Positions 48,470 through 51,631 of a stretch of 64,000 nt of DNA are shown here, one piece after another; positions within the stretch are counted from its first letter, which is position 1, and the number at the start of each line of letters is the position of its first letter. The position numbers were made by a program, and so were the translations under genes. Source of the stretch: Chloroflexota bacterium (lineage in GTDB: Bacteria; Chloroflexota; UBA6077; FW602-bin22; CADDYW01); NCBI GenBank assembly GCA_902810745.1, contig CADDYW010000010.1, positions 1-64,000 on the forward strand, read 5' to 3'. Under the pieces are notes generated by a model. The model made no database searches. It was given only the letters and a program-made list of their open reading frames with translations, and was not told the DNA's origin.

Positions 48470-48548
48470 CGGGGCGTGGCGCAGTCTGGTTCAGCGCGCG
48501 TGGTTTGGGACCACGAGGTCCCCAGTTCAAATCTGGGCGCCCCGACCA
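48470..48548 (+). tRNA. tRNA-Pro (UGG)
   Basis: Acceptor strands CGGGGCG and CGCCCCG pair. The anticodon stem CGTGG/CCACG encloses loop TTTGGGA with anticodon UGG. The T arm is CCCAG-TTCAAAT-CTGGG, and CCA is encoded at 48546-48548. Broken genes end just upstream, and an intact operon begins downstream, which marks it as a rearrangement boundary. Confidence 0.95.
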
Positions 48549-48679: not shown

Positions 48680-48764
48680 GGTCCTGTGCAACGGCGCGCC
48701 GGTAGCATGCCATGAGATCCGGGGCAGGAGGGCGTCGTGCCAGGCAACGAGAGGAGGTCAGAAC

Positions 48765-50405
48765 GTGGGCAAGATCACCGTGCTAAATCCGCTGGGCTAT
48801 CCTCCGAAGGTAATCGGGAAGCCGATGGCGCCGCGCCTCGACACGCTCGACGGCAAGACGATCTATCTGGTTGACGCCCGCTTCGACGACTCGGGCATCC
48901 TCCTCGCCCAGATGCAGAACTGGTTCACCGAGCACATGCCCTCGGTCAAAACCCGACTCGTCCAGCTATCGACCGTCTACACCCAGGATGATCCGAAGAC
49001 CTGGCAGGAGATCAAGGCGAACGGCGACGCGGCGATCATCGGCGTCGGCCACTGAAGCACCTGTGCGCCGGCGGTCGCCGTGCACGGGATGACGCTCGAT
49101 AGCACCTACGGAGTGCCGACGGTCTCGCTTCACACCAAGGTCTTCGAACGGGCGGTGCGCTCGGTTGCCCGGGTGAGCGGCATGCCCCGCGCCCGCTACG
49201 CCTTCGTTCCCATGCCGGTTATGGGCAAATCCCCGGAGGAGCTGCGCGCCTACGTCGACGGCAACGATCCGATCACCGGTCGACCGGTGATGCAGGAGGT
49301 CATCGAGGGCCTCACCCGACCCCTCGACGACGAGGAGCTGAAAGGCGTCACCTTCGAGCGCTCGACACCGCGGCTCGTCGAGCCCGACACCGAAGAGAAC
49401 CTGCATCAGCTATTCCTGGAGAATAACTGGACCGACAAGCTGCCGATCATCCTCCCAACCGAAGAGCGCGTCGCGGAGATGCTGGCCCACACCAGCCGAA
49501 AGCCAGACGAGGTCGTCGGGCACATGCGGCCGACGCTGTTTCGCGAGTACTGGGAATACACCGTCGAGAAGGTGGCCGTCAACGCGGTGATGGCGGGAGC
49601 GCGGCCGGAGTATTTTCCAGTGATCCTGGCGCTGGCCGCGACCGGTACGAGTGCGCGCGGCAGCACGACGAGCTCGATGGCGGCGATGGCGGTGGTGAAC
49701 GGACCGATTCGCCACGAGATTGGCATGAACGCGGGGATCGGCGCGATGGCCCCGTACAACCACGCCAACGCGACGATCGGCCGCGCCTACGGCCTGCTCT
49801 CGCAGAATCTGCAGGGGGGATCGGTCCCGGGCCTGACCTACCTCGGCTCGCAGGGGAACAACTACATGTACAACAGCATCACCTTCGCCGAGAACGAGGA
49901 GCGCAGTCCCTGGGAGCCCTTCCACGTCCAGCACGGCTTCAAGCCGACCGACAGCACCGTCAGCGTCTTCACGGGTTGCCGCCACACGTCGTTCACGCTC
50001 GGGCTGCGCGAGACGTATTGGCGCGAGCACGTCCGCAACATGCTGCGTGGGATCGACCCGCACAATCCGCCGACACTCCTCCTGGACCCGATCACCGCTC
50101 GACAGTTCATCGATCGCGGCGGCTTCGACACCAAGGAGAAGCTGATTCACTGGATCTACGAGAACGCGCGCATGCCGGCGGGCGAGTACTGGGACTACCA
50201 GCTCATCCAGAACTACATCTATCCGCGGGCGACGTTCGGCGAGGAGCCGTGGGCGACCTTGCTGAAAGCCGCGCCGGACGAGCTGATCCCGATGTTCCGC
50301 GAAGGGGATATCCACGTCGTCGTGGTTGGTGGCGAGACGAACGGCTACTGGCGCATCATGGGATGTAACTACGCGAAGACCGTCTCCGTGGACGAGTGGC
50401 GCTAA
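48765..50405 (+). CDS. UGSC-family selenoprotein with in-frame TGA (Sec97)
   Basis: Read through TGA 49053-49055 as selenocysteine, the frame gives 546 residues. The N-terminal domain (1 to about 190) reads AAIIGVGH-Sec-STC-APAV, then YGVPTVSLHTKVFERA. This matches the UGSC family, whose motif is G-x-G-x-Sec-G-S-C; Sec97 and Cys100 form a U-x-x-C pair like a redox centre. The C-terminal domain (about 200-546) has WTDKLPIILPTEERV, GPIRHEIGMNAG, ANATIGRAYGL and SPWEPFHV, a domain commonly fused to UGSC whose activity is unknown. Homology is continuous across the TGA and both halves share one frame. AGGAGG precedes GTG 48765 by seven bases. A SECIS-like hairpin follows the TGA. A conventional caller would split this into 48765-49055 and 49080-50405. 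Confidence 0.88.
49060..49088 (+). promoter_or_regulatory. Bacterial SECIS-like hairpin after the Sec codon
   Basis: CCTGTGC (49060-49066) pairs with GCACGGG (49082-49088, one U-G pair). After a small internal bulge containing a U, CGGC (49069-49072) pairs with GCCG (49077-49080) around the loop GGUC. The loop begins 17 bases after the TGA, inside the usual window, and the same GGUC occurs in the apical loop of the E. coli fdhF SECIS. Confidence 0.75.
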
Positions 50406-50422: not shown

Positions 50423-51631
50423 ATGCGGGTCCACTGGTTCCACCTGATGCCCTATCAGGATCTTCCCCCGGACTTCTCCCAGCGTTACCACAGCGTCTGG
50501 GTCGACGTTCCTTCCCACCTGTTCGATCCGGTGGCCTGCAGCCGGATGTACCACGAATACCTTGACGAGCTCGAAGAAGCCGACCGTCTCGGCTTCGACG
50601 GCATCTGCGTCAACGAGCACCACCAGAACGCCTACGGAATGATGCCGTCGCCCAATCTGATGGCAGCCACCCTCGCCCGCCGGACCAGGAACGCCGCGAT
50701 CGTCGTCATGGGAAACAGCATCGCACTCTACAATCCGCCGGTCCGCGTTGCCGAAGAGTTCGCGATGCTCGACGTGCTCAGCGGAGGCCGGCTTGTCGCC
50801 GGCTTCCCCGTCGGTACCTCGATGGACTCGAACTACTGCTATGGCCAGACGCCAGCCACCTTGCGCGAGAAGTACGACGAGGCCCACAACCTCATCATCC
50901 AGGCCTGGACCCGCCCGGAGCCTTTCGCGTTCAACGGAAAGTACACCCAGCTTCGCTACGTCAATATCTGGCCGCGGCCGATCCAGAAGCCCCATCCACC
51001 GGTCTGGGTGCCGGGTGGCGGTAGCGTCGAGACCTGGGAGTGGGTGGCGCGTCGAAACTACGTCTATTCGTATCTGTCCTACTCTGGCTACCTCCGCGGC
51101 AAGCGGCTGATGGATGGTTACTGGGAGACCGTTGACCGCCTCGGCATCGACGCGAATCCCTATCGCGCCGGGTTCGCCCAGGGCGTCGTCGTCGCGGACA
51201 GCGATAACGTCGCCGAGGCAGAGTACTGGGAGCACGTCCGCTACTTCTATGACAAGTGTCTGCACGTCTACGAAGGCTTTGCCGACGCGCCGGGCTACCG
51301 AAGCATTCGCACGCTCGAGGCCAACATCCCCTCGCTCTCCGGCTCGACGCCGCGGAGCGTCCGTCAAGCAGCGACCTGGCGCGACCTGGTCGACGGCGGG
51401 GCGGTGATCGCGGGCAGCCCGGCCACGGTGCGCGACCGACTGATCGACCTGGCAAAGTCGCTCCGCGTCGGACACCTGATGATTCTGCAGCAGTTTGGCA
51501 ATATGCCACGCGACAAGGTGAGGCGCAGCACCGAGCTGTTCGCGCGAGACGTGCTGCCCGCGCTGCGCGGGATCTGGAGTGAGTGGCCCGACCACTGGTA
51601 CCCAACCGGGGCGCAGGCGGTGGCGTCATGA
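50423..51631 (+). CDS. Luciferase-like (LLM) flavin-dependent monooxygenase
   Basis: A 402-residue TIM-barrel enzyme of the bacterial luciferase family, which uses reduced FMN or F420 to oxidise substrates. Seen are LEEADRLGFDGICVNEHHQN (a typical early strand and E-H-H motif), RVAEEFAMLDVLSGGRLVAGFPVGT and HPPVWVPGGGSVET. ATG 50423 follows AAGGAGGG, 17 bp after the selenoprotein stop. It overlaps the hydrolase start by 4 bases, so the three genes form one operon. The substrate is unknown; these enzymes often attack carbon-sulfur, long-chain or heterocyclic compounds. Confidence 0.92.
   Translation: MRVHWFHLMPYQDLPPDFSQRYHSVWVDVPSHLFDPVACSRMYHEYLDELEEADRLGFDGICVNEHHQNAYGMMPSPNLMAATLARRTRNAAIVVMGNSIALYNPPVRVAEEFAMLDVLSGGRLVAGFPVGTSMDSNYCYGQTPATLREKYDEAHNLIIQAWTRPEPFAFNGKYTQLRYVNIWPRPIQKPHPPVWVPGGGSVETWEWVARRNYVYSYLSYSGYLRGKRLMDGYWETVDRLGIDANPYRAGFAQGVVVADSDNVAEAEYWEHVRYFYDKCLHVYEGFADAPGYRSIRTLEANIPSLSGSTPRSVRQAATWRDLVDGGAVIAGSPATVRDRLIDLAKSLRVGHLMILQQFGNMPRDKVRRSTELFARDVLPALRGIWSEWPDHWYPTGAQAVAS

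Follow-up and report, generated by a model that had tools for sequence, protein, structure and literature searches.

Is the TGA at positions 49053-49055 the end of a broken gene, or a codon for selenocysteine (Sec) within a whole one? In the window (i.e., the entire 64,000-nucleotide stretch of Chloroflexota DNA analysed here), standard ORF calling breaks the gene in two, the second ORF being 49080-50405. An earlier, sequence-only reading had taken both ORFs for a single frame parted by this TGA, and direct translation agrees with it: the frame 48765-50405 contains one internal TGA, at residue 97, and gives a read-through protein of 546 residues in which the Sec-flanking sequence quoted at the time can be recognised as GVGH-U-STC-APAVAVH. 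We conclude from sequence comparison that this apparent stop is very probably read as Sec. For the locus as a whole, we hold it highly probable that a single gene encodes a selenoprotein of the UGSC family, with a hairpin directing the insertion of Sec97, and that the protein acts as a component of a reductase. The features concerned are listed in Table 1; outside them, a tRNA-Pro gene (TGG) lies at 48470-48548, about 220 nt upstream of the selenoprotein gene.

Table 1. Position of the features discussed, in window coordinates.
Feature	Position	Strand	Remarks
Shine-Dalgarno-like AGGAGG	48752..48757	+	7 nt 5' of the GTG start; read from the sequence
Probable selenoprotein gene, 546 codons, TGA as Sec97	48765..50405	+	GTG start, TAA stop 50403-50405
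UGSC domain, residues 6-164	48780..49256	+	PF24696, 83.8 bits, gathering score 25
UGA codon, putative Sec97 in the U-S-T-C motif	49053..49055	+	sequence and orthologue columns
Hairpin of the sequence-only reading, extended form	49060..49088	+	lower stem not conserved
SECIS-like hairpin, conserved core (+10 to +28)	49065..49083	+	core pairs and fixed synonymous positions
GGUC apical loop (+18 to +21)	49073..49076	+	31/31 main Sec genes
C-terminal domain, residues about 196-546	49350..50402	+	no Pfam model matched
Luciferase-like (LLM) monooxygenase gene	50423..51631	+	PF00296, 131.3 bits; 17 nt downstream

The split ORF calls, in a bin that is a draft of 293 contigs (5.59 Mb, 96.6% complete, 7.9% contaminated), could suggest that the TGA is a nonsense mutation or a sequencing error and that the ORFs are the remains of a disrupted gene. 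Against this stands the distribution of the codon in the phylum. Matches were found in 43 of 400 genomes, evenly drawn from a larger group, and each of the 14 full-length orthologues among them (window included; separate assemblies, 71-100% identical) carries a single TGA, always at one and the same alignment position, and the protein is conserved both before and after it. A codon shared by 14 out of 14 orthologues is more than chance, and relatives that lack the TGA have Cys in its place and nothing else, all of which brings the probability of a disrupted gene close to nil.

A scan of named genomes extended this comparison to 121 relatives, the best 80 of which were kept; several of their assemblies are also in the 400-genome set, and the two sets are not independent. 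In these best 80 of 121 the Sec column is TGA in 34, TGC in 44 and TGT in 2, and thus residue 97 is Sec or Cys only in all 81 members of the subfamily, window included, which is the conservation that the sequence-only reading had proposed to look for among homologues. Of the two patterns searched for, GVGHCSTC is biased towards Cys forms and Sec forms could be reached via the other only, so that the 34:46 ratio of Sec to Cys is not a natural frequency. The S-T-C that follows this column is constant among the rows listed. The window and its orthologues have U-S-T-C, and not the literal U-G-S-C, as had been read from the window itself; what was then taken for a variant of the motif, however, is no lone case but is fixed across the subfamily.

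The residue inserted is itself not visible to sequence tools, and UGA could be read as Trp or as some other residue, through a change of code or a leaky stop, and without any selenium. Yet it is Cys, and never Trp, that occupies the column in 46 of the 46 rows without TGA, no further TGA interrupts the gene, and the bin holds both the genes for Sec and a second selenoprotein, SelD; such a reading is therefore exceedingly unlikely. The bin was searched for selA, selB, selC and selD, whose absence would have spoken for a disrupted gene, and all four score over their cut-offs: selA with 558.1 bits (cut-off 267.9), selB with 368.7 (242.25), tRNA-Sec, with the anticodon TCA, with 69.5 (gathering score 47, next best 42.7), and SelD, on contig C18 and itself a selenoprotein with its own in-frame TGA in the motif GUACK (L052), with 389.3 (125). 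In 14 control genomes the cut-offs were passed by selA in 1, selB in 2, tRNA-Sec in 5 and selD in 2. On the evidence of the bin alone contamination is possible, because contig C2 carries selA, selB and tRNA-Sec whereas the window belongs to contig C10. Across the best 80 of 121 relatives, 31 of the 34 genomes with the Sec form have a selB over the cut-off, as opposed to 15 of the 46 with the Cys form (Fisher p 8e-8, uncorrected for kinship); the Sec-form bins lacking a full selB are L064, L069 and L095, of which L095 has a fragment of 159.6 bits. SelB and tRNA-Sec of the host would be the ones to decode UGA 49053-49055 as Sec.

Decoding would be directed by a short hairpin just 3' of the UGA, with its core at +10 to +28 and its GGUC loop at +18 to +21. 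A hairpin after the TGA had been pointed out before, with its loop placed at +17; the hairpin stands, the position of the loop needs this small shift. In what follows, 31 main Sec genes, window included, are considered apart from four Sec genes of the alphaproteobacterial side. The loop GGUC is present in 31/31 main Sec genes, in 5/46 Cys genes and in none of the four set apart, and the apex, CGGCGGTCGCC, is nucleotide-identical in all 31. Of the 35 Sec rows 30 contain the 15-base string GCGCCGGCGGTCGCC, and of the 46 Cys rows 1. Of the 31 main Sec genes, 30 or 31 form each of the pairs 10-28, 11-27, 12-26, 14-25 (or 13-25), 15-24, 16-23 and 17-22, as opposed to 12, 12 and 22 that form pairs 9-29, 6-32 and 5-33. 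The long lower stem CCUGUGC/GCACGGG, formerly counted as part of the SECIS, is not conserved and has to be dropped from it, which leaves the short apical hairpin as the conserved SECIS.

Most core pairs are invariant in the main Sec genes, and hence pairing is less telling than synonymous constraint. Pair 12-26 is G-U in 13 of these genes, G-C in 16, U-A in 1 and mismatched in 1, which amounts to one compensated change, from G12-U/C26 to U12-A26, in L127. In the 31 main Sec genes, on the other hand, codons +4 to +8 have normalised codon entropies of 0.10, 0, 0, 0 and 0, where the gene mean is 0.569 (330 usable columns), and of 363 sliding stretches of 11 codons the one with the lowest entropy begins at codon 101. 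The same codons in the 46 Cys genes have values of 0.53, 0.79, 0.60 and 0.59, the fifth being unscorable (mean 0.594). Since synonymous positions of the apex are fixed where the gene has Sec and vary where it has Cys, the constraint acts on the RNA and tracks the UGA. Folding energies are mixed. That of 49053-49100 has a minimum of -21.9 kcal/mol; 12 of 200 dinucleotide-shuffled sequences are as stable, for a z-score of only -1.89. Compared with synonymous recodings of the same peptide, the window has -21.4 and the recodings a mean of -13.0, with 0.3% as stable; 95% of such recodings are beaten by only 7/31 main Sec genes, 4/4 alphaproteobacterial-side Sec genes and 0/46 Cys genes. An Rfam search of 49000-49200 gave no SECIS family, chance matches only.

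Two departures from this pattern deserve mention. The four Sec genes of the proteobacterial side (L094, L095, L101 and L110) have another loop, without GGUC at +18, and their hairpin could possibly represent a second route to Sec insertion, or Sec gained from Cys. A single Cys gene with TGC (L085) retains the exact 15-base string of the Sec forms, perhaps as a relic of a recent change from Sec to Cys.

The tree places 31 Sec genes on one side with full support (Chloroflexota, Rokubacteria, Binatota and deltaproteobacterial bins), and the 46 Cys genes on the other, with the remaining 4 Sec genes among them. The fewest changes between Sec and Cys on this tree are two, and again two once the motif columns and two rows are taken out. 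The AU test does not reject a common clade of all Sec genes (p 0.486); an independent gain of Sec in these four genes, for which the tree asks two changes, is no more than possible.

The ORF 49080-50405 is there to be translated, and the locus might accordingly make two real proteins, a peptide of 96 residues and a C-terminal protein starting at GTG 49080; the two domains are, after all, often encoded by separate genes in distant relatives. From the 400-genome search, 34 UGSC domains of such relatives were read, 33 of them distinct. Their Sec column is TGA in 32 of 33 and Thr in one, and their motifs are mostly UGSC, with UGGC, UAGC, UGNC and UGAC once each and USTC in none. The C-terminal domain is fused as in the window in 12 of the 33; for the other 21, a separate gene for it lies on the same strand in 19, on the other strand in 1, and in 1 none occurs in the stretch read. 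But where the genes are split, one gene encodes the UGSC domain in full, including a TGA of its own, whereas GTG 49080 lies within the hairpin and within the UGSC domain, and not at the domain border near residues 165-195. In addition, the Cys relatives read straight through, and we consider two separate proteins very unlikely. The pattern is as expected if the UGSC and C-terminal domains work together, since they are fused or neighbouring in distant relatives. The one relative with Thr in the Sec column (L038) is a fused protein, perhaps a non-redox paralogue.

With one gene as the preferred reading, its family can be considered. The sequence-only reading had assigned the protein to UGSC, which Pfam upholds (PF24696, Table 1) and the NCBIfam equivalog NF041046 does not, its score of 59.3 bits being below the cut-off of 125. 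On this sequence evidence the USTC proteins are a subfamily lying under NCBIfam's cut-off, which the present analysis adds. When 67 members were compared with NCBIfam, weak matches to selenoprotein B models of glycine, sarcosine, betaine and D-proline reductases appeared in 11, 8, 4, 3 and 2 of them (best E 5e-4), next to unrelated models matching 4-5 of the 67 at E 0.003-0.004. Pfam GRDB (PF07355) matches none of the 67 at E up to 1, and nothing in the bin, and neither this model nor TIGR01917/01918/04483 makes the proteins members of GrdB/PrdB, the weak NCBIfam matches being confined to at most 11/67. Alignment of profiles (hhalign), with 49 UGSC domains on one side and seven GrdB/PrdB-like proteins on the other, gave a probability of 94% (E 1.4e-7 as a single comparison) and brought the Sec columns into register; the reversed-profile control gave 0.5%. 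This weak, Sec-aligned homology suggests that the UGSC domain is distantly related to selenoprotein B of glycine and proline reductases.

A Sec protein that folds like thioredoxin and serves thiol redox in general, as in the 2008 suggestion for UGSC proteins (PMC2398784), would fit the UxxC motif. An AlphaFold model from 67 sequences (pLDDT 94, pTM 0.92; a run with 14 sequences, at pLDDT 60.9, was set aside) predicts with confidence, however, strand-helix units one after another, with Sec following strand 3, an order that reads as Rossmann-like and not thioredoxin-like in the N-terminal domain. Foldseek returned no convincing whole-chain match (one match at E under 0.001, TM 0.14), and there is no thioredoxin-named entry among the 50 matches listed; the sequences of solved structures gave none at E up to 1. 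Together with the profile similarity to GrdB/PrdB, this makes the thioredoxin-like alternative unlikely.

Where could the electrons of a reductase come from? A gene for a thioredoxin-reductase-like (TrxR-like) flavoprotein with a CxxCD motif (Pyr_redox_2) is directly adjacent in 35 of 81 loci, namely 7/35 Sec and 28/46 Cys loci. It follows the UGSC gene immediately and on the same strand in 7/35 Sec and 25/46 Cys loci (at least 900 nt of downstream sequence being available for 32 Sec and 42 Cys loci), immediately precedes it in 3 Cys loci, and in 4 further loci is located elsewhere. In the window locus the gene is not beside the selenoprotein gene, and its best homologue in the bin is an ordinary TrxB, encoded elsewhere. 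This homologue was also considered as a second selenoprotein and rejected, for it is a TrxB with CATC whose in-frame TGA is its stop. The Cys form together with an adjacent TrxR-like gene occurs in culturable hosts, e.g., Neorhizobium galegae and Ramlibacter.

As for the window's own neighbours, the luciferase-like monooxygenase gene is possibly co-transcribed with the selenoprotein gene. An operon with the window neighbours was nevertheless rejected, as this monooxygenase has only 4 weak matches in 80 loci (25-29% identity, minus strand, 1.6-4.5 kb off); the neighbouring alpha/beta hydrolase and EamA genes have no match at E 1e-8 in the 80 loci. In some rhizobial loci (L116, L121 and L098), genes for a malonyl-CoA decarboxylase and an AMP-binding ligase directly precede the UGSC-family gene, and genes for a GntR regulator and an ABC transporter follow it; these neighbours hint at the pathway.

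The conserved UGA, the interchange of Sec and Cys, the constraint at the RNA level, the machinery in the bin and the adjacency of genes are computed observations, and the best reading of them, on comparative grounds, is that the window protein is a Sec/Cys component of a reductase. Sec97 and Cys100 would sit at the turn from strand 3 to helix 3 of an N-terminal alpha/beta domain, itself presumably related, at a distance, to the selenoprotein B subunits of the reductases for glycine, betaine, sarcosine and D-proline. Once inserted, Sec97 would act on a substrate that the C-terminal domain may help to bind; the oxidised Sec-Cys pair would then be re-reduced, in many relatives with electrons coming from the adjacent, NADPH-dependent TrxR-like flavoprotein. 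It is tempting to go further and speculate, quite tentatively and with doubts prevailing, that the fused USTC proteins of Chloroflexota, Rokubacteria and rhizobia supply the catalysis in a so far undescribed NADPH-driven reductase, with a GrdB-like Sec domain and the C-terminal domain in one chain and a dedicated TrxR-like flavoprotein, i.e., a one-chain equivalent, perhaps tolerant of oxygen, of the clostridial glycine/proline reductases, with an organic compound as its substrate.

This way, an apparent pseudogene becomes a full-length enzyme, and the 34 Sec and 46 Cys forms of a 546-residue protein offer a natural comparison of what selenium adds. The Sec-aligned relation to GrdB/PrdB and a TrxR-like gene that recurs as a neighbour make, as far as we know, the first concrete and testable biochemical proposal for UGSC. 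Novelty lies in these functional leads and not in the recoding itself, given that the UGSC selenoprotein family was already published (PMC2398784), with 255 Sec and 21 Cys forms in an ocean set and a UGSC/Unknown_1 fusion. The passages of the UGSC literature covered here present the family and its distribution, and give no function, GrdB relation or TrxR neighbour. Judged by sequence, the window gene is a real selenoprotein gene, a fused USTC form of a known family, to which are newly added the USTC subfamily, the weak Sec-aligned homology to GrdB/PrdB, and the adjacent TrxR-like gene, with its CxxC, in 35/81 loci.

Three known systems can be set beside it. With the UGSC family (PF24696, NF041046) the window protein shares the N-terminal domain, the Sec column, the UxxC spacing and the fusion to a conserved C-terminal domain (reported for the family as UGSC/Unknown_1, possibly with the same domain as here), but it differs by U-S-T-C in place of U-G-S-C and by its score below the NF041046 cut-off. 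With the thioredoxin-like UxxC selenoproteins it shares Sec and Cys two residues apart, whereas the predicted order of its fold and its Foldseek list are unlike thioredoxin. With the GrdB-type selenoprotein B and PrdB (PF07355, TIGR01917/01918/04483), finally, PF07355 is unmatched, the C-terminal domain is a different one and no partner subunit of such a reductase was noticed beside the window gene; what is shared is the remote homology in the profile comparison, with the Sec columns aligned, and the weak NCBIfam matches.
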